From Endomicrobiaceae bacterium (lineage in GTDB: Bacteria; Elusimicrobiota; Endomicrobiia; Endomicrobiales; Endomicrobiaceae): DNA of 64,000 bases. Below, piece by piece: positions 1,151-61,732 of this stretch. A program made the translations under genes and the position numbers. The stretch is from the NCBI GenBank assembly GCA_028690485.1, contig JAQVBD010000001.1, forward strand, positions 1 to 64,000, read 5' to 3'. The notes beneath the pieces were generated by a model, which worked only from the letters and a program-made list of their open reading frames with translations, was not told where the DNA came from and ran no database searches. The number at the start of each line of letters is the position of its first letter. Position 1 is the stretch's first letter.

Positions 1151-2967
<1,817 letters not shown>

Positions 2968-2980
2968 AGGTGAGGTTATT

Positions 2981-3364
2981 ATGAGTAAAATGTTATCAAA
3001 ATTTATGTTTTTGTTTATGGTTGTTACACTTTTGAGTTCAAATGTTTTTGCTGAGGCAGCAGGAGCAGGTAGTGCATTTGGCGGTTTGATGCCATTAATA
3101 ATCATTTTTGTTTTCTTTTATTTGTTTCTTATCAGACCACAACAAAAACAAAGAAAAGAACACCAGAAAATGTTAGAAGCTCTTCAAAAAGATGATAAAA
3201 TAATAACTTCAGGCGGGTTATATGCAACAGTTGTTTCTGTTAAAGGTGATGTTGTAGAAGCTAAAATTGCAGATAATGTTAAAGTTCAGATTGTAAAATC
3301 AACTATAACAACTGTAATAGTTCCAACAAGTGAAGTTGCAGTTACACCTGAAATTATAAAATAA
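2981..3364 (+). CDS. yajC: Preprotein translocase accessory subunit YajC
   Basis: YajC is a small inner-membrane partner of SecDF. The chosen ATG is preceded by a strong AGAGGTGAGG ribosome site; an in-frame ATG at 2930 lies inside tgt and has no such site. The 127-residue product has an N-terminal hydrophobic segment ending in S-N-V-F-A (possible signal peptide), then the characteristic membrane helix with L-I-R-P-Q-Q-K-Q-R-K-E-H at its cytoplasmic end and the G-x-V-V-x-A-K-I-A-D-N core. The extra N-terminal hydrophobic segment is unlike E. coli YajC, which has a single helix. Its location between tgt and secD supports the call. Confidence 0.95.
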   Translation: MSKMLSKFMFLFMVVTLLSSNVFAEAAGAGSAFGGLMPLIIIFVFFYLFLIRPQQKQRKEHQKMLEALQKDDKIITSGGLYATVVSVKGDVVEAKIADNVKVQIVKSTITTVIVPTSEVAVTPEIIK

Positions 3365-50340: not shown

Positions 50341-51411
50341 ATGCTAAAAGAAACTTTTTTAAACAAAAAACATAAAGAGTTGAGTGCTAAATTTACTGAA
50401 TTTGGCGGGTGGAATATGCCGGTTATGTATACCTCAATAATTGAAGAACATAATGCTGTTAGAACAGCAGCAGGCATTTTTGATACTTCTCATATGGGAA
50501 CATTTATTATTACAGGATCTAATGCAGGTAAATTTTTAGATTTTATAACAATATCTGATATGTCTAAATTGCCTTTATATAAAGCCAGATATTCGATGCT
50601 TTTAAATGAAGAAGGTGGAATTAAGGATGATATCATAGTTTATAAATTTGAAGATTATTATATGATGGTTGTAAATGCTGGTAACTTAGATAAAGATTTT
50701 AAATGGTTAAATGATAATAAAATTGATAATGTTGAAATAAGCAATATAAGCTCTGAAATTTGTTTAATTGCATTACAAGGTCCAAAAGCAATTGAGATAA
50801 TGCAAAATATTGTTGAAGAAAATATTCTCTTTATGAAATATTTTACAGGTAAAGATGTTAAGTTTAAAGGATTAAATTCAAAATTTGCAAAAATTGCAAG
50901 AACAGGTTATACAGGTGAAGATGGCTTTGAAATTTTTGTTTCAAATAACTGTGCGGAGAAGGTATGGTCTAAGTTACTTGAATTAGGAGCAAAACCTTGT
51001 GGTCTTGGGTGTAGAGATACTTTGAGATTAGAAGCATGCATGCCTTTACATGGTCATGAAATTTCTGAAGAAATTACTCCAATAGATGCAGGTTTTGAAA
51101 AAACTGTATTTTGGCAAAAAGAGTTTATAGGAAAATCAGTTATAGAAAAAGCCAGAAACAATCCGTTAAAAAAACTTATAGCTTTTTTTTGTGAAGGTTC
51201 AATAGCAAGAAATGGTTCAGAACTTTTTTTAAATGACAAAAGAATTGGTTATGTTACAAGTGGAACATTTTCACCGACATTAAAAAAAGCGATAGGCCTT
51301 GCTTTAATAGATTATAATACAAACGAAACATCTGAAATTAAAGTAAAAGTTCATAACAATTTAAGAAATATAAAAATCGTTTCAAAACCATTTTACAAAA
51401 GAACGAAATGA
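50341..51411 (+). CDS. gcvT: Glycine cleavage system T protein (aminomethyltransferase)
   Basis: Transfers the methylene group of glycine to tetrahydrofolate. The 356-residue protein has F-G-G-W-N-M-P-V-M-Y, D-T-S-H-M-G, G-G-I-K-D-D, R-T-G-Y-T-G-E-D-G-F-E, C-G-L-G-x-R-D-T-L-R-L-E-A and a C-terminal G-x-V-T-S-G-T-x-S-P-T. It follows lpdA in the same direction with GAGGGAAAAG before its ATG. The other glycine cleavage genes (gcvH, gcvP) are not in this window. It overlaps the following pilus gene by 4 bases. Confidence 0.95.
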   Translation: MLKETFLNKKHKELSAKFTEFGGWNMPVMYTSIIEEHNAVRTAAGIFDTSHMGTFIITGSNAGKFLDFITISDMSKLPLYKARYSMLLNEEGGIKDDIIVYKFEDYYMMVVNAGNLDKDFKWLNDNKIDNVEISNISSEICLIALQGPKAIEIMQNIVEENILFMKYFTGKDVKFKGLNSKFAKIARTGYTGEDGFEIFVSNNCAEKVWSKLLELGAKPCGLGCRDTLRLEACMPLHGHEISEEITPIDAGFEKTVFWQKEFIGKSVIEKARNNPLKKLIAFFCEGSIARNGSELFLNDKRIGYVTSGTFSPTLKKAIGLALIDYNTNETSEIKVKVHNNLRNIKIVSKPFYKRTK

Positions 51412-52139
51412 TGAAATTTAGCTTAGTTATAATTTTTATATTTTCTTGCTTTAATTTTTTGTTTGCAGAACAGTTGATAGAAATATCTGTAGAAATTACA
51501 GAAATAAATAATAATAAAGCAAAAGAGTATGGCATTAAATGGGTTGATGAAATATCTGCCGGTGAGTTATTGATCGAAAATGCAAGTGGTTCAACAGCTT
51601 TTCCATCATTAGTTGATTTTAATGATTGGGTAAGATATACTCCTCTTAGTGCTAAATTGAAATTATTACAAGAAAATGGTTCAGCACAAGTTTTATCAAA
51701 CCCAAAATTGGTTACTAAGTCAGGATCCAAAGCCAGATTTTTAGTAGGAGGAGAATTCCCTATTTCTGTTTCAGGTGTTTCAGGTGGAACTGTTGAATGG
51801 AAAGAATATGGAATTATAACTGAAATTTTGCCAAAAATATTACCGGATAATAAAATAGATCTTTCTATTGAAGCAGAGCTTTCGAGACTCGATTGGTCAA
51901 ATGCAGTCCAAGGTTTTCCAAATATTGCAAAAAGACAAGCAAAATCAAATGTCATAGTAAAAAATAAACAAACTATAGTAATTGCAGGTTTAATAGAAAA
52001 TTATAAAGATAAAAGTACTTCAGGGTTACCATTATTGTCGGATATACCAATATTAGGTGTTTTATTTAAAAAAACAAAAACAGTGGAAAATAAAACAAAT
52101 GTTTTAATATTTGTTACATCAAAAATTATAGAACAATGA
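51408..52139 (+). CDS. Short secretin-domain protein (GspD/CpaC C-terminal type)
   Basis: A 243-residue exported protein: signal peptide of about 20 residues ending in L-F-A, then the secretin core with E-I-S-V-E-I-T-E-I-N, Q-V-L-S-N-P-K-L-V-T, G-G-x-F-P-I-S and G-L-P-L-L-S-D-I-P-I-L-G-x-L-F. Secretins form outer-membrane gates for type II secretion or pili and are usually 400-600 residues because of N-terminal N-domains. These are absent here, so it may be a minimal secretin or a truncated paralog. The two adjacent ATGs (51408, 51411) are both possible starts. Context with pilin-like genes suggests a Tad-like system. Confidence 0.82.
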   Translation: MMKFSLVIIFIFSCFNFLFAEQLIEISVEITEINNNKAKEYGIKWVDEISAGELLIENASGSTAFPSLVDFNDWVRYTPLSAKLKLLQENGSAQVLSNPKLVTKSGSKARFLVGGEFPISVSGVSGGTVEWKEYGIITEILPKILPDNKIDLSIEAELSRLDWSNAVQGFPNIAKRQAKSNVIVKNKQTIVIAGLIENYKDKSTSGLPLLSDIPILGVLFKKTKTVENKTNVLIFVTSKIIEQ

Positions 52140-52315
52140 AGTATATTATAAATCAATTAAAAAATAATTTTGCTCAAACAACAGTTGAATATATTTTATT
52201 TATAGTAATTATGTTTATTGCAAGTTATGGAATGCTTAAACTCTTTTCTTTAGTTTGGAAATATAAATTTAATCTTATTTCTCTTTCAGTTGGAACATTT
52301 AATGCAATTTTTTAA
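52136..52315 (+). CDS. Flp-type pilin-like small membrane protein
   Basis: A 59-residue protein with a class III prepilin pattern: short positively charged leader, F-A then Q-T-T-V-E-Y with glutamate at +5 of the likely cleavage site, followed by a hydrophobic helix I-L-F-I-V-I-M-F-I-A. Flp pilins are about 50-70 residues and normally have Gly at -1; here it is Ala. It overlaps the secretin-like gene by 4 bases (ATGA) and the next TadE-like gene starts inside it. Its tight packing in the operon supports it being real. Confidence 0.78.
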   Translation: MKYIINQLKNNFAQTTVEYILFIVIMFIASYGMLKLFSLVWKYKFNLISLSVGTFNAIF

Positions 52316-52805
52316 AATAATTAACACTAATAGAGGACAATCTTTCTTAGAGGGACTTGTTATTAGCATTATAATAACAATTTTTATGTTTGCAGCAGTA
52401 CAAGTTTGTATTATGTGTATTGATGATATGTTTTTAAATTTTGCTAGTTTTAGTGCTACTAGAAAAATTTCTGTAAGTAAAAGAAAAGAAATAGAAAATG
52501 TGGCTAAAAAATCCGTATCTGATATATTGTCTGTATATAGTTTAAATTCAGCAAGTATAATAAATTATAAAACTACCCATTGGGATGAACCAATATTAGG
52601 CAACAAAGTTAAAGATCATAATAATAACAATATAAATAAACATAATGTTAAGATTGGATATGACATGAAAATTATGTTTAGTAAATTATTTAATTCAACA
52701 GCATACAGACATCAGTCATCAAGAGCCAGAATGGTAAAATCGCCGGATGAAGAATATTATAATAAGGCATATCCAGATGCAAAAGAATTCCCATCATTTA
52801 AATAA
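52302..52805 (+). CDS. TadE-like pseudopilin
   Basis: A 167-residue protein with a G/Q-S-F-L-E prepilin-like cleavage motif near residue 12 (glutamate at +5) and a membrane helix at about 16-38, then a soluble part. This fits the TadE/TadF minor pseudopilins of the tight-adherence (Tad) pilus. The ATG chosen follows GGAA at 6 bases and overlaps the pilin-like gene by 14 bases; a TTG four codons earlier is an alternative. The partner TadG-like gene follows. Confidence 0.72.
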   Translation: MQFFKIINTNRGQSFLEGLVISIIITIFMFAAVQVCIMCIDDMFLNFASFSATRKISVSKRKEIENVAKKSVSDILSVYSLNSASIINYKTTHWDEPILGNKVKDHNNNNINKHNVKIGYDMKIMFSKLFNSTAYRHQSSRARMVKSPDEEYYNKAYPDAKEFPSFK

Positions 52806-53955
52806 ATTTTACATTAATAAGAAAGGTCAAGTATTACCATATTTTCTTGTTATGGCTATGATTTTATTACTAAGTTGGGCTATGATGTTAAATATTGCAA
52901 AATTACTTAGAGATAGAATGATTTTGCAAAATTCTGTTGACAATGTTGCTTTATCAATAGGAACTTTGCAAGCAAGAACATTAAATTTGCTTGGTGCAAC
53001 AAATCACCTTATGGCAACAATTTTGTCAACAGCATCATATCCAAAAATTGCTATGTTTCCAACATTTTCTACAGATAGAATTGGTGGTTCTATGATACCG
53101 GGACCATTTTGCGATTATAAATGTAGTGGCTGTTCAGGATTTACAATGACAGAAAGTTATACAGGTGTATTAAGAATGAAAAAAGCGATTAATAAAATAC
53201 AAAAATTTCAAGATACAGTCATAAATATGTATATGATTAATCATTTTGGGATTATTAAAAGTATTGCAGCAGAATATAATACTGTTGTAGTTATACCATC
53301 AAGATTTGCAAAGAATCTAAATTCTATAAATATAACTCTAACAGATCCAAAAGTCTTATTAGGAATTAAACGGAATAATAAAGGAATAACTTATTATAAA
53401 ACTATAAATTATTGTGGTGATTTTAAGGCAAAACATTACCATTTAGTTAATGCAAAGAAATATACACAAGATAAAGTTTCATGGTATATACAAGATAAAG
53501 ATTTTTATGATAAAAAGTTAATTGCAGTTGGTACAAAACTTTCAACAGCTAAATCAAATGAAAATTATCCATTATTTGCAAATATGGTAGGTATTAAATA
53601 TCCAACAATGTATGCTGTTAGTGCGGTTGGTATATACAATACAAAAGGGGCAATGTTCCCTGATAAAGAAAGTGATGAAATAGGTCTATCATATATTACC
53701 GCAGCAGTTTTATCTCCAATGATAATAAAACAATTAAAAGTTTTTTATGATGCAAGTGAAGCTCTTAGTCTTATACCTGTTGTTGGCCCAATTTTAGGCG
53801 GAACGGTGCTTATATCCGGTGGAATTTATGCTGCTGTTGCAGTAGATAAAATTATTTCAGAACCTAATAATAAAAATACACCGATTTATCAATATAATAA
53901 TGCTGAACTTGGCGGATGGGATGCTCATTTTGTTCCTGTTGTTAATAAAAAATAG
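52777..53955 (+). CDS. TadG-like Flp pilus assembly protein
   Basis: A 392-residue protein with the K-K-G-Q-V-L-P-Y-F sequence and an N-terminal helix (about 18-40), then a soluble periplasmic region. The N-terminal pattern matches TadG-type proteins, which carry a G-Q-A/V-x-P motif before their membrane anchor. A late hydrophobic segment lies at about 325-350. No von Willebrand domain was recognised, unlike many TadG proteins. The chosen ATG has AAGG upstream; an in-frame ATG at 52747 would add ten residues. Tad ATPase and platform genes are not in this window. Confidence 0.62.
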   Translation: MQKNSHHLNKFYINKKGQVLPYFLVMAMILLLSWAMMLNIAKLLRDRMILQNSVDNVALSIGTLQARTLNLLGATNHLMATILSTASYPKIAMFPTFSTDRIGGSMIPGPFCDYKCSGCSGFTMTESYTGVLRMKKAINKIQKFQDTVINMYMINHFGIIKSIAAEYNTVVVIPSRFAKNLNSINITLTDPKVLLGIKRNNKGITYYKTINYCGDFKAKHYHLVNAKKYTQDKVSWYIQDKDFYDKKLIAVGTKLSTAKSNENYPLFANMVGIKYPTMYAVSAVGIYNTKGAMFPDKESDEIGLSYITAAVLSPMIIKQLKVFYDASEALSLIPVVGPILGGTVLISGGIYAAVAVDKIISEPNNKNTPIYQYNNAELGGWDAHFVPVVNKK

Positions 53956-55902: not shown

Positions 55903-58900
55903 TTAAGCTGAAGATAGTAAGGATTTAACATTTATTATATTTACAGTTTCATTATATATAGAAGAATTTTTATTTTCCCTATTAAATATTTGGGGGATAA
56001 TGATAGAAGCAGAAATTATAATAGAAGTACTGATTGTAATTAAAGTATTCCCATTTATTCCTATGGATAATAAACCACTTATTGATATTTGAGTGATACT
56101 GGCAACAATTGTTCCAAACATAGATTTAAATGCGAGCCATTTAGATTTCATATTATCATCTATTATTTCATATACTGCAGATATTTCTGTTAAAGAGGAA
56201 GTTCCTTGCCAAAAATTCATTGAAACATATAAAGTAATTAAAAATATAGGATGTCCAGTAAAAGCAAACAGTCCTACAAGTACTCCCATAGATATAAAGA
56301 AAATATTTCTATTTATTTGTTTTTCAACTATATAACTAAACTTCTTAATAAAATGTGATGCTAATGACTGGAACATGTTTGCAGCAAAATATATCGGTGC
56401 AAGAGCACCAATGGTTAATCCTGTACTAATTAATAATGGTTGTAAAAAGAAACATAAACTTACAAAGAAAATATTATTTATTACAATATTTATAAGCACA
56501 ATTGATAATGTTTTTTTGTTAGAAGACAATTTTATAATAGGTATAAATAAATTTTTAAAATATGTTTTTATTTTTTTTGATTCTTTTATGATTTTTTTAA
56601 GTTCTTTGTCGCTTTTTCGATTTTGTTTATGAGTTTCCTTATATGTAAATATAAAACTTCCAGATAAAACAACTATATCCAATATTGCTGCAATTGTGAT
56701 TACAATCATTTGATTTGTAAAGAAAGCAATTGTTCCGCCAAGAAGAGATGATACAGACATTATTATCCAGAATAACGCTAAATTTGCACCATAGATTTCC
56801 TGAAATGATTCTTTTTCACCAATCTTTTCAAGAGATTTAAAAAGAAAAGGACTGAGACTTACAGATAACCCGGATATTCCTATTGTTGGCAAAATCTGAG
56901 AAGCTAATAATAAAATTGGAGATAATCCTGATACAGTAAAACATATAGTTCCTAATGTATGGATAAATAATGATACAACAACTAAAGTTCTCTTTGAAAT
57001 TTTGTCACCAATTAAACCTGCAATCCCAGAACTAAAAAAACTAATAGGAGCTAATAATGAAAACACTATTGCAATAAATTCTAAGCTATATCCATTTGAC
57101 TGCATAAAAATAGTTGAAAAAGATGAATATAAATCAAATCCCAACATCAGTTGAATGAAAGGAAAAAATTTGATATTTGATTCCATTTTTTTTAATGTTT
57201 TTACATCTAAAATTTTTTTATTATTGCCATGGTATCTGTAAATAAAAGGTTGTTTAAATTTATTTAAATATTGTTTAACAATTTTCTTTACTTTTATAAA
57301 CCATCCTTTTAAACTTAATGAATTACTAGTTAAAATAATATCAGATAAATCTATTGTTTTTTGATTAATAGAAAACTCAGAATCTTTTATACCGGATTTT
57401 CCTAATCCCCAAAAATTTTTATGTATATTTGCCCACTTGTTTATAATTTCAATAATTTCCTTGTCTTTAAAACCGCTGCTTCTTAGTTCTTTTATCCATG
57501 TTAATAAAAATTGTTTTTGTTTGTATTTTGATAATCCTAAAACTAATAAACCATCTGAAAGAGCATCAGATGAAGTTTTTATATCCAACAATATCTGTTT
57601 ATAATGTCCTGTATCAATTTCTTCTGCATTTGGCATTATAACAGCATATTTTATTTTTTCATGCTCAAATATCCTAATAATATCATTATGAAATCCTCCT
57701 ACAATCAATATGTCTGTTTTTTTTGTGTTTTTTCTTTTTTTTATAACATCAACAAAAATACTATTCCTTTCAATATTGTTTTTATAATAAGTAGATATTA
57801 AATCATTATTTAATATTTTTATAATTTCTTTTTTATTAGTAATTTTACTTGTTCCGATTGTATTTTTAAATTTTTTTATATTTGCATTAAACTGTTTCAA
57901 ATCTTCAAATTGTATATGTAAACTGACATATTCTTTTAATAACATTATCATTTGGCTTATAAAAGCTGTCTCTTTCGTTTTTCTTGTTGTGAAAGTTCTA
58001 TCAAATATATCTTGTCTTAAAATAGTTTCTTCAATTAAAAATTTTTTAATATCAAAAGATTTAATTAGCTCATATTTCTTTTTTAATGTTTCAATATACT
58101 TATATTTTTGAAATTCTTGATTTTTTAAAAATGGTTTAGCATTTGTATAGAGTAAAATTAAATTTTCTTCAGCTGTTTTGTTTTTTTGTTTGTTTATAAT
58201 TTGTGTATATAGTGCAAAAGAAATTTTATCTTTTAGTATTTTTAAAAAGAAATTTCTATCTTTACTGACATTACTGTTTTTTATATTTATTTGTGGATTT
58301 TTTATAATATCAATAAATTTTTTTACATTTTTATATGAAGAACTAATATTTATATTGGAATAAATACATAAATTATTTAATTTATTAAAAAAAATACTAT
58401 CTTTTTTAATATTTGTACTGTTATATAGTTCATCATATATAAACATTTTTTTATTATAAAATAGTTTTTTTAATGCTTTTAGATTTTGTTCGGTTATTTC
58501 TATATTATTTAAAAAATATTTTTCTTTTTTTTGTATATTTTGAAATATTTTTATAGTGTTTATATATAAATTCCAAGATTCTATGCCATATAAATGGGTG
58601 TTTTTATTAATTGCTGCATAATATTCAAGTCCACTTAATAAACCTTGTTCAATCATTTTATTTAAAATTTTTATTTTTATTTTTTCTGGATATATCTCAT
58701 TTAATGGTGATAAATTAATTTTACCAATAGGTGCTCCTTCTGTAAAAAAATAACCAATAGACATTTTTTTATCAAGATAATCTATAATATTGAAAATATT
58801 TTTTTGTACTTTTGGTTGGCAATGAAAATCTTGGATAACTACTATATCAAGTTTTTCATTTTTTGCTGTATTAGTTTCAAAAATTCTGCCGTATGATATA

Positions 58901-59037
58901 GGTATTTTTTTTAAAATTTCTATATTACTATTATTAAAGACAGCATTATTAGTTATAGATTCAGCTGTAATCCCGTTAGGAATTAATATAGAAATTAAAT
59001 ATGTAATTAATGTAATTATTGATATTAATTTATTCAT
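55903..59037 (-). CDS. ChaN/TIKI-like domain fused to a major-facilitator permease
   Basis: A predicted protein of 1044 residues. An N-terminal hydrophobic segment (about 2-25) suggests export or anchoring. Residues about 60-470 form one domain containing V-V-I-Q-D-F-H (66-72), T-E-G-A (99-102) and I-V-G-G-F-H (445-450). A QDxH, Glu and GxxH pattern like this recalls the TraB/TIKI, ChaN and erythromycin-esterase superfamily; I infer this and have not proved it. Residues about 625-1025 are a major-facilitator-like permease with 10-12 helices and the G-D-K-I-S-K-R signature after helix 2. The ATG lies 2 bases after the nrdG stop; an in-frame ATG at 59061 would overlap nrdG. It is thus the third gene of the riboswitch-controlled operon. 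Substrate unknown. Confidence 0.75.
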   Translation of the reverse strand: MNKLISIITLITYLISILIPNGITAESITNNAVFNNSNIEILKKIPISYGRIFETNTAKNEKLDIVVIQDFHCQPKVQKNIFNIIDYLDKKMSIGYFFTEGAPIGKINLSPLNEIYPEKIKIKILNKMIEQGLLSGLEYYAAINKNTHLYGIESWNLYINTIKIFQNIQKKEKYFLNNIEITEQNLKALKKLFYNKKMFIYDELYNSTNIKKDSIFFNKLNNLCIYSNINISSSYKNVKKFIDIIKNPQINIKNSNVSKDRNFFLKILKDKISFALYTQIINKQKNKTAEENLILLYTNAKPFLKNQEFQKYKYIETLKKKYELIKSFDIKKFLIEETILRQDIFDRTFTTRKTKETAFISQMIMLLKEYVSLHIQFEDLKQFNANIKKFKNTIGTSKITNKKEIIKILNNDLISTYYKNNIERNSIFVDVIKKRKNTKKTDILIVGGFHNDIIRIFEHEKIKYAVIMPNAEEIDTGHYKQILLDIKTSSDALSDGLLVLGLSKYKQKQFLLTWIKELRSSGFKDKEIIEIINKWANIHKNFWGLGKSGIKDSEFSINQKTIDLSDIILTSNSLSLKGWFIKVKKIVKQYLNKFKQPFIYRYHGNNKKILDVKTLKKMESNIKFFPFIQLMLGFDLYSSFSTIFMQSNGYSLEFIAIVFSLLAPISFFSSGIAGLIGDKISKRTLVVVSLFIHTLGTICFTVSGLSPILLLASQILPTIGISGLSVSLSPFLFKSLEKIGEKESFQEIYGANLALFWIIMSVSSLLGGTIAFFTNQMIVITIAAILDIVVLSGSFIFTYKETHKQNRKSDKELKKIIKESKKIKTYFKNLFIPIIKLSSNKKTLSIVLINIVINNIFFVSLCFFLQPLLISTGLTIGALAPIYFAANMFQSLASHFIKKFSYIVEKQINRNIFFISMGVLVGLFAFTGHPIFLITLYVSMNFWQGTSSLTEISAVYEIIDDNMKSKWLAFKSMFGTIVASITQISISGLLSIGINGNTLITISTSIIISASIIIPQIFNRENKNSSIYNETVNIINVKSLLSSA

Positions 59038-59039
59038 TT

Positions 59040-59630
59040 TTAATGTTTTATTGTGTTGCAATGTTGAATTCGATAATTGATATCTTGTGTAAAAAATTCT
59101 TTCATTTTTTCAATATCAGTCGATAATAATTTTGTTCTATCATAAGTTGTTCTAAATTCGAATTTTATGTGAGAATTTTTAATAATCTCAATACTTGTTT
59201 TAATTTTTTCGATATCAACAGGAACACAAGATACATAACTGTATTTATCAAAAGTAGCTTTTATATCCATAGCAATAAAATCTATTAACTGTTCATCAAT
59301 TATTTTTTTTATTATTTCAGGATTTGATCCATTTGTATCAAGTTTTATAAGGTATTTCATAGATTTAATTTTTTTAATAAAATCTATTAAATCAGGTTGA
59401 TAAGTTGGTTCCCCTCCAGTAATTACTACTGCATCCAATTGTTTTGTTCTAGTCTCTAAAAAAGAAAAGATTTGTTCAACAGGTATAGGAATTTTAAATA
59501 AATTATAATATACAAGTTCCGGGTTATGACAATATTCACATCTAAAATTACATCCTTGAGTAAATATAATGGCAGAGCTTTTTTGTGGGAAATCAATGAG
59601 AGAAAATTTTTGCAATCCTCCTATTTTCAT
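59040..59630 (-). CDS. nrdG: Anaerobic ribonucleotide reductase activating protein
   Basis: Radical-SAM activase that installs the glycyl radical in NrdD. The 196-residue protein has C27-x3-C31-x2-C34 in G-C-N-F-R-C-E-Y-C-H-N-P-E, the T-G-G-E-P-T segment for SAM binding and the N-terminal F-S-L-I-D-F-P of the class III activases. It overlaps nrdD by 4 bases and continues into the large fusion gene. Confidence 0.95.
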   Translation of the reverse strand: MKIGGLQKFSLIDFPQKSSAIIFTQGCNFRCEYCHNPELVYYNLFKIPIPVEQIFSFLETRTKQLDAVVITGGEPTYQPDLIDFIKKIKSMKYLIKLDTNGSNPEIIKKIIDEQLIDFIAMDIKATFDKYSYVSCVPVDIEKIKTSIEIIKNSHIKFEFRTTYDRTKLLSTDIEKMKEFFTQDINYRIQHCNTIKH

Positions 59631-61732
59631 AGATTTACCACCTTTCTGATTTTATATTCTTCTTGTTTGCCTTCATTCCATTGAGAAACAGGTCTTAAAT
59701 AACCTACAACTCTAGAATAAACTTCACAGGCTTGTCCGCAAGTTGGACATATTTTGACTTCTCCATTTTGATAACCGCAAGAAGGACACACACTAAATGT
59801 TGGTGTTATAGACATATATGGTAATTTATATTTTGTGAAAGCTTTTTTAATAAATTCTTTCAGAGCAACTGTATCAGTAATTCGTTCGCCAATAAACATA
59901 TGTTGTACAGTTCCACCAGTATAAAGAGATTGTATTTCGTGTTGTAATTCCAGAACTTCAAATAAATCATCAGTATAATTTACCGGTAATTGTGTAGAAT
60001 TTGTATAAAATGGAGGCTTATTTTGTTTTACAGCTTCCATGTTAGCAAAAATAATATCTGAATATTTTTTTCTATCAATTTTTGCCAATCTGTAAGATGT
60101 TCCCTCTGCAGGTGTTGCTTCTAAATTATAGATATTTCCTGTTTCTTGTTGATATTTTTCAAGTTTTGCTCTCATAAAGTTAAGAACTTTAATAGAAAAA
60201 TCTTTGCCTTTTTGGCTTGCAATATTTTCTTTTAAGAAATTTATGCAACATTCATTCATTCCAACAATACCAATAGTTGAAAAATGATTTTTCCAATAAC
60301 AATTAAATCTCTCTTTTACATTTCTTAAATAATAACTCATATATGGGTATAAGTTTTGGTTAGTAAGTTTTTCAAGGATTTTTCTTTTTATTTCTAAGCT
60401 TTCTTTTGATAGATTCATTAAAGTTTCAAGTTTATAAAAAAACTCTTCTTCATTTTTAGAAGTATATCCAATTCTTCCCATATTTAAAGTAACAACACCA
60501 ATTGAACCTGTCAAAGGAGAAGCACCAAATAATCCACCACCTCTTCTTCTAAGTTCTCTGTTATCTATTCTAAGTCTGCAACACATACTTCTTGCATCAT
60601 CTGGATCCATTTCTGAATTTATAAAATTTGCGAAGTAAGGAATACCGTATTTGGCTGTTATTTCCCAAAGTAATTTTAATGATGGGTTATCCCAATCAAA
60701 GTTTTTACCTATATTGTATGTTGGTATAGGGAATGTAAAAACTCTTCCTTTTGCATCACCTTCTAGCATAACATCAAGAAAAGCTTGGTTCAACATATCC
60801 ATTTCATTTTGAAAATCTTTATATTTTTTGTCTAGAATTTTGCCACCTATAACAATATTTTCATCTAAATAATATTTTGGAACTTTTACATCAAATGTGA
60901 GATTTGTAAAAGGTGATTGAAAGCCCACTCTTGTAGGAACATTTAAATTAAATAGGAATTCTTGTAATGCTTGTTTTACATCTTTGTATTGTAATTTGTC
61001 ATAAGCAATAAAAGGAGCAAGTAAAGTATCAAAACTTGAAAAAGCCTGTGCTCCTGCTGCTTCGCCCTGTAAAGTATAAAAAAAATTTACAATCTGACCT
61101 AAAGCAGTTCTAAAATGTCGAGCCGGGATAGATTCAACTTTGCCGGAAACCCCTTTAAATCCGGTAAGCAACAAATCATATAAATCCCAACCAACACAAT
61201 AAACGCCTAAAATACCTAAATCATGGATATGTAAGTCGCCATCTATGTGAAATTGTTTTATTTGAGGAGTGTATATCTTATTTAACCAATATATTTTACT
61301 TATTTCTGATGAAACATAATTGTTTAGTCCTTGCAAAGAATATGACATATTGCTATTTTCATTAACTTGCCAATCTTTTTTTGATAAGTATTGATCAACT
61401 AAATCAACATTAAAATTAGATATTATGTCTCTAATTTTTGAATGTTGTTCTCTGTATAAAATATATGCTTTTGCGGATGTTTTGTATGGAGATGTTATTA
61501 ATACTTCTTCGACGATATCTTGAATTTCTTCTACAGAAGGATTTTTGTCAGCAAATATTTGCTGAACAATATTAACGACTTTAAAAGTTAACTTTAAAGC
61601 TGTTTGTTCATCAAATTCACGAGTAGCTTGGCTTGCCTTATAAATTGCTGATTTTATTTTTTCAGGATTGAACTTCTCTGTTGTACCATCTCTTTTTACG
61701 ACATTTTTAAAAATTGATATTACATTTTTCAT
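59627..61732 (-). CDS. nrdD: Anaerobic (class III) ribonucleoside-triphosphate reductase
   Basis: Oxygen-sensitive glycyl-radical enzyme making dNTPs for DNA synthesis. The 701-residue protein has an N-terminal ATP-cone (about 5-95, V-V-K-R-D-G-T), the catalytic barrel, a zinc site C649-x2-C652 and C662-x2-C665, and the glycyl-radical site R-V-V-G677-Y-L near the C-terminus. NrdG is encoded immediately downstream. Upstream lies a cobalamin riboswitch leader of about 315 bases with a consensus promoter. GGGG lies 6 bases before the ATG, at the edge of a hairpin. Confidence 0.97.
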   Translation of the reverse strand: MKNVISIFKNVVKRDGTTEKFNPEKIKSAIYKASQATREFDEQTALKLTFKVVNIVQQIFADKNPSVEEIQDIVEEVLITSPYKTSAKAYILYREQHSKIRDIISNFNVDLVDQYLSKKDWQVNENSNMSYSLQGLNNYVSSEISKIYWLNKIYTPQIKQFHIDGDLHIHDLGILGVYCVGWDLYDLLLTGFKGVSGKVESIPARHFRTALGQIVNFFYTLQGEAAGAQAFSSFDTLLAPFIAYDKLQYKDVKQALQEFLFNLNVPTRVGFQSPFTNLTFDVKVPKYYLDENIVIGGKILDKKYKDFQNEMDMLNQAFLDVMLEGDAKGRVFTFPIPTYNIGKNFDWDNPSLKLLWEITAKYGIPYFANFINSEMDPDDARSMCCRLRIDNRELRRRGGGLFGASPLTGSIGVVTLNMGRIGYTSKNEEEFFYKLETLMNLSKESLEIKRKILEKLTNQNLYPYMSYYLRNVKERFNCYWKNHFSTIGIVGMNECCINFLKENIASQKGKDFSIKVLNFMRAKLEKYQQETGNIYNLEATPAEGTSYRLAKIDRKKYSDIIFANMEAVKQNKPPFYTNSTQLPVNYTDDLFEVLELQHEIQSLYTGGTVQHMFIGERITDTVALKEFIKKAFTKYKLPYMSITPTFSVCPSCGYQNGEVKICPTCGQACEVYSRVVGYLRPVSQWNEGKQEEYKIRKVVNL

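Follow-up and report, generated by a model that had tools for sequence, protein, structure and literature searches.

Giant proteins have already been reported for the Elusimicrobiota and Omnitrophota, and these accounts give length statistics or general roles (PMC11573180, PMC12057145). The Elusimicrobiota rank with the bacteria that have the most giants, and very few of these proteins have an assigned function. Phages and plasmids also encode very long multi-enzyme proteins, known as polyvalent proteins. A further point of comparison is the TIKI superfamily, in which the reference site consists of E-x-H, a Glu about 28 residues downstream and a second His; in RRSP (H3902-E3930) and in BcR135 (H85-E113) the His-Glu spacing is 28 residues (PMC6254334).

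The window analysed here is a stretch of 64,000 nucleotides from an Endomicrobiaceae genome. An ORF on its minus strand (55903-59037, ATG at 59037 and stop at 55903; the ORF lister favours an alternative start, TTG at 59061) encodes a two-part protein of 1044 aa. The first-pass annotation had described this protein as a hydrolase-like or ligand-binding domain joined to an MFS permease, and its frame, its strand, its motifs (VVIQDFH at residues 66-72, TEGA at 99-102 and IVGGFH at 445-450) and its MFS half were all recovered in place. The features of the protein and its upstream neighbours are listed in Table 1.

Table 1. Features of the fusion gene and of the genes upstream of it, in window coordinates.
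Feature	Position	Strand	Basis
N-terminal hydrophobic segment, Sec-signal-like, residues 1-28 (MNKLISIITLITYLISILIPNGITAESI)	58954..59037	-	family-wide flank charges, small-x-small site
TIKI-superfamily-like N-terminal domain, residues 29-480	57598..58953	-	AF2 model, invariant residues
QDFH motif (residues 69-72), carrying the first acid and the first His of a site of the 2His/2Glu type	58822..58833	-	alignment
E100-G101, second acid, 28 residues past H72	58735..58740	-	spacing of 28 in 102/109 members
GGFH motif, residues 447-450, second His	57688..57699	-	GGFH in 97/109, GGYH in 12/109
Long all-helical insert splitting the core halves, residues 155-435	57733..58575	-	AF2 secondary structure
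Linker, helical, K-rich, without transmembrane segment, residues 485-611	57205..57585	-	AF2 model, TM prediction
MFS permease domain, 12 TM helices, residues 612-1019	55981..57204	-	Pfam, AF2, Foldseek
C-terminal tail VKSLLSSA-COOH, residues 1037-1044	55906..55929	-	consensus of 67 family C-termini
nrdG2, activase of the anaerobic ribonucleotide reductase, immediately upstream	59040..59630	-	TIGR02495, 203.8 bits (cutoff 131)
nrdD, anaerobic ribonucleotide reductase	59627..61732	-	TIGR02487, 580.7 bits (cutoff 326)

The fusion was found in 12 of the 60 genomes examined, counting this one, from seven genera, at 22-62% identity and always in ORFs of at least 600 aa, which indicates that it is not a chance frame. 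No stand-alone version of the permease was found among the 60 genomes, and the C-terminal tail is kept on the fusion even at 22% identity. In this genome the gene has nrdG and trxB as neighbours. In five genomes it comes immediately after nrdD and nrdG, an adjacency that suggests co-transcription, and in two genomes a paralogous MFS fusion adjoins feoB and a porin gene. Elsewhere in the window, 2 kb from the fusion gene, lies a region (51408-52139 (+) and 52290-53955 (+)) with a secretin domain (PF00263, E 3.7e-45) followed by two ORFs without a Pfam match that resemble pilus or envelope proteins; this region is possibly a secretion or pilus locus.

No Pfam family covers the N-terminal half of the 1044-aa protein. 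Neither PF04187 (ChaN / Cofac_haem_bdg) nor PF05139 (erythromycin esterase, absent from the genome) matched the protein, and PF01963 (TraB/PrgY/GumN) matched neither the protein nor anything else in the genome; PDB sequence searches with the protein gave no useful match. The AF2 model of residues 1-550, built from 56 homologs, has a pLDDT of 85.8 and a pTM of 0.82, with beta strands at residues 65-70, 94-106, 148-153, 441-447 and 464-469. Foldseek with the domain model returned nothing below E 0.001, the search being swamped by the helical insert, and its best PDB match, BcR135 (3b55), was weak (E 0.36, prob 0.35). Ten residues are invariant in the 56 sequences (D70, H72, E100, G132, N421, R424, G447, G448, H450 and P469). 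They include residues that match the TIKI 2His/2Glu pattern (D70-x-H72, E100, H450), with a single conservative change, Asp replacing the first Glu, and the H72-to-E100 type of spacing is exactly that of the reference proteins in nearly all family members (Table 1).

Head domains of giants from other Elusimicrobiota classes match the Endomicrobial profile with a probability of 100 and an E of 7e-43. One of them (L236) exceeds the Pfam cut-off for ChaN (29.3 vs 27.7 bits), and six more fall under it with E 7e-4 or better. These giants (L236-L242) carry a different version of the head, 'LHIQDAHxNxEAQxNI', and different tails that often end in Ala. When its profile was compared directly with ChaN, EreA and TraB sets, the Endomicrobial domain gave no significant match, either whole or with the helical insert removed, and for this reason kinship with the superfamily is claimed here and not membership of one of its families. 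That kinship (ChaN, TraB, erythromycin esterase) is supported on several grounds: the residue pattern, the spacing, the ChaN-matching relatives and the weak fold match to BcR135 all point to the group that the first-pass annotation had guessed. The domain has in common with BcR135 (3B55), ChaN, TraB/PrgY and RRSP the acid-x-His, the Glu 28 residues later and the last His borne on GGFH, together with a conserved Asn/Arg on the helix preceding the last His strand. It differs from them by the Asp in the first pair, the helical insert of about 280 residues and the variable fused cargo.

This genome (1.63 Mb in 122 contigs) has at least 13 genes headed by the same domain, including the permease fusion, a count in which some genes are split at contig ends and the joins C72/C79 and C77/C82 are putative. 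The fusion of such a domain to a permease, which had been called unusual, is unusual in general but routine within this family. The cargo in this genome includes two MFS domains, a metallophosphatase, a deaminase and a glycolytic multi-enzyme giant. The giant, of at least 4434 aa, carries ADK-PGM-PGM-PGK-PGI, that is adenylate kinase, two phosphoglucomutases, phosphoglycerate kinase and glucose-6-phosphate isomerase. The second MFS fusion, on contig C73 (L009:4186-7389), is interrupted at codon 54 by an in-frame TAA, and its relative in genome G001 is open. No toxin domain was detected above threshold in the members of this genome; one member has a MafB19-like deaminase match under the cut-off (18.3 vs 27). 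When giants that bear the tail but have their front parts on other contigs are added, the family occupies about 7% of the assembly (summed ORFs).

An ordinary PGK is also present as a 419-codon frame on contig C65, so that the giant-borne glycolytic enzymes are second copies. Moreover, the PGKs carried by giants in two genera share 86% identity and group in a separate clade with full support in the tree, which indicates that they are being kept and are not decaying. The stand-alone PGKs of this genus and of genome G019 (L361, L363, L365) fall in a long-branched clade apart from those of the other Endomicrobiaceae and may represent a replacement. Some structural details of the giants were also observed. 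In L014 (G000:C97) two near-identical phosphoglucomutase units of about 700 residues stand in tandem (residues ~1800-2500 and ~2520-3220), as a result of either a recent duplication or an assembly artefact. The giant L350 (G000:C29:1-8100) contains many near-identical repeats of about 66 residues (VNALVDGLMSYFGISKATAMGIIFPEWKDADG...) and apparently continues from contigs C77 and C82. Three family giants lie in tandem on G000:C29 (L160/L347/L348), and the same order is found in a second species, in G001:C8:4000-36000 (L351/L352).

Across the phylum the domain was found in 70 of 341 Elusimicrobiota genomes, covering every sampled family of the Endomicrobiales and several distant ones. Homologs with a named source assign the group studied here to the order Endomicrobiales. 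The richest genome among the Endomicrobiales relatives has at least 25 members, and the ORFs reach 11,814 residues. In these relatives the cargo includes PPDK, phosphofructokinase, glycogen phosphorylase, debranching enzyme, GH77, GH94 and others; HD and deaminase domains, phosphorylases and one LPD3 domain (Pfam) also occur in the family. In the genus g8 the family is absent or sparse, and one g8 genome has a copy of the N-terminal domain gene with several stop codons. The small genomes of this genus match the description of Endomicrobiellum (PMC11257099), and g8 probably comprises flagellate endosymbionts.

The members also share their other end. Nearly all of those from the Endomicrobiales terminate in an eight-residue tail with the consensus Φ-[RK]-x-[IMLV]-L-x-A-A, and the cargo domains that precede it are unrelated to one another. 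In 67 distinct family C-termini, Leu occupies position -4 in 61, Ala positions -2 and -1 in 54 and 55, Ile, Met, Leu or Val position -5 in 66 and Arg or Lys position -7 in 48; these fractions are somewhat flattered because the set was drawn from family ORFs and from continuations that were recognised partly via the tail itself. The unbiased frequency, from closed family ORFs of the first set of loci, is 28 of 34. A loose form of the tail was seen in 10 of 459 other closed ORFs, all of which are truncated or frame-broken family members (ORFs cut at contig or locus ends, or overlapping the ends of broken family ORFs), and among the proteins examined the tail was found on no unrelated one. Genome-wide statistics come from a DNA pattern search together with the ORFs of the loci examined. 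The pattern [IM]-L-x-A-A-stop gave 14 matches in this genome, whereas the reversed control gave none, and every large ORF among the 14 is a family member or a family-like giant. In other genomes the control often equals the signal, and the pattern count alone is thus modest evidence. Distant Elusimicrobiota members have other endings, frequently Ala. A tmRNA tag was considered as the origin of the tail and rejected, since no tmRNA was found in this assembly and several of the tags predicted for relatives are doubtful.

With regard to the permease half, Pfam MFS_1 matches residues 631-981 above the gathering score (E 2.6e-10), and AF2 models residues 565-1044 as an MFS fold of 12 helices (pLDDT 77, pTM 0.76) whose Foldseek matches are VMAT2, NorA, MdfA and LmrP (E about 3e-8 to 5e-7). 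These results bear out the earlier view that the MFS domain is complete. The NCBIfam model Tet(42) gave an E of 1.2e-4, but its score was 21 bits where the cutoff is 850. As judged by the resemblance of the modelled fold, the cargo would be a permease of the drug/H+-antiporter type; like the DHA-type exporters (VMAT, NorA, MdfA, LmrP) it has the 12-TM MFS fold and a GDKISKR-type loop 2-3, and unlike them it has a TIKI-like fusion partner, with at most 17% identity to them.

The topology is more difficult to interpret. An export segment had been proposed as a feature that could place the first domain outside the membrane, and a segment of this kind was indeed found: family-wide its n-flank has on average 3.0 K+R vs 0.45 D+E and its c-flank 0.78 vs 0.90, a small-x-small cleavage-like site is present in 106 of 108 members and a conserved CF in 68 of 108. 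The charges of the MFS loops conflict with that placement. In 13 MFS members the even loops contain 293 K/R per 1525 residues (19.2%) and the odd loops 5 per 1395 (0.4%), so that by the positive-inside rule the start of the permease is cytoplasmic, and a search for a transmembrane segment in the linker between the two parts found none. The Sec-like segment and the loop charges thus appear to contradict each other, and either one of them has been misread or the topology is unusual.

The reading that we favour, with a probability of about 0.6, is that the permease protein belongs to a modular family in which the N-terminal domain plays a generic role that is not specific to the cargo. What the sequences show is the anatomy of this family: its common ends, the variety of its cargo, its conservation and how the permease half folds. 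All members start with a segment resembling a Sec signal, followed by a domain of the TIKI superfamily whose active site appears to be intact. This domain would be a hydrolase, most likely a peptidase, having one family-wide job, which may be the processing of the members or their anchoring at the envelope. The tail could be the common signal by which that machinery, or a protease that processes C-termini, recognises the members, and the permease itself would export a small molecule and be co-expressed with NrdD-NrdG. The mechanism of peptidase and tail, taken alone, is put forward tentatively. Rather doubtful is its extension to a general delivery or assembly system of the Elusimicrobiota built on the TIKI-like hydrolase head and the tail, in which the head acts as the processing peptidase of the family and multi-enzyme giants, including a second glycolytic set and membrane pumps, are sent or tethered outside the ordinary cytosol.

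The generic role is preferred to the one first suggested, in which the domain binds or processes the permease's ligand, for example by binding or hydrolysing haem, a corrinoid or an ester outside the membrane and handing it to the MFS part. The ChaN-like superfamily, the signal-like segment and the position of the MFS paralog beside feoB and a porin gene would fit such a role. However, 12 other genes of this genome begin with the same domain and have mostly unrelated cargo, so that the domain is not specific to the permease, which leaves the ligand-processing idea unsupported; with the cytoplasmic start indicated by the MFS charges and the resemblance of the permease to exporters (VMAT, NorA, MdfA), we regard it as very unlikely. 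The signal-like N-terminus, along with the giant modular architecture, could also indicate effectors, exported proteins displayed on the surface or released for cell contact that inject or display housekeeping enzymes by the logic of multi-effector toxins. Such toxins do contain TIKI domains (PMC6254334), and the giants of these phyla have been interpreted as weapons on the cell surface or as structures resembling cellulosomes (PMC12057145). Nevertheless the lack of a toxin domain above threshold in the members of this genome, a cargo drawn largely from central carbon metabolism, the oddity of an MFS permease as effector and the absence or scarcity of the family in g8, presumably endosymbiotic, make this quite unlikely.

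The MFS topology would be accommodated if the N-terminal segment served to anchor the protein in the membrane instead of exporting it, and if the enzymes and permease formed metabolic complexes tethered to the cytoplasmic face of the inner membrane. ATP-using cargo, which is hard to reconcile with export, and its conservation (as in the giant-borne PGK of two genera) would agree with this arrangement, as would the numerous tight TM hairpins. The N-terminal segment, however, shows the standard inside-to-outside bias in its charges, and the hairpin flanks were dropped as topology evidence, their charges being near bulk composition and hence uninformative; we consider this arrangement unlikely. 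Compatible with any of these explanations is the idea that the tail is an ssrA-type degradation tag, by which ClpXP destroys cytoplasmic leftovers or a Prc/CtpA-type protease trims exported ones. The tail ends in Ala-Ala and the tmRNA tags predicted for relatives end in IAA or LAA, but the tail has Leu at -4 and a small or variable residue at -3 whereas the tags have Leu or Ile at -3, the [RK] at -7 and the hydrophobic residue at -8 exceed what a degron needs, and several tag predictions are, as mentioned, doubtful. This role for the tail is improbable as well.

In the open-licence PMC literature (preprints aside) nothing was found on the head domain or the tail, and no description of a family sharing both, whereas giant Elusimicrobiota proteins as such are known; the Endomicrobia genome paper is silent on hypothetical, multidomain and large proteins and on secretion. 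The head, with its intact predicted catalytic site, and the tail provide two short signatures by which many giants can be grouped, tested and mined. The second glycolytic copies in signal-bearing proteins raise the question of where these enzymes act, and a permease of the same protein type carries topology signals that contradict each other internally. Compared with the polyvalent proteins, the family is similar in its long multi-enzyme members and in one LPD3 domain, and differs in being signal-bearing and conserved between genera and in having a shared N-terminal domain and tail. The giants described previously belong to the same phylum and size range (to more than 11,000 aa), whereas the portions of those accounts considered here contain no shared N-terminal domain, tail or second glycolytic copies (PMC11573180, PMC12057145). 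Polymorphic toxins (PMC3482391) likewise have an N-terminal part for export that stays constant while the C-terminal cargo varies; the present family differs from them in having no toxin domain above threshold, a mostly metabolic cargo and a C-terminus that is constant too.
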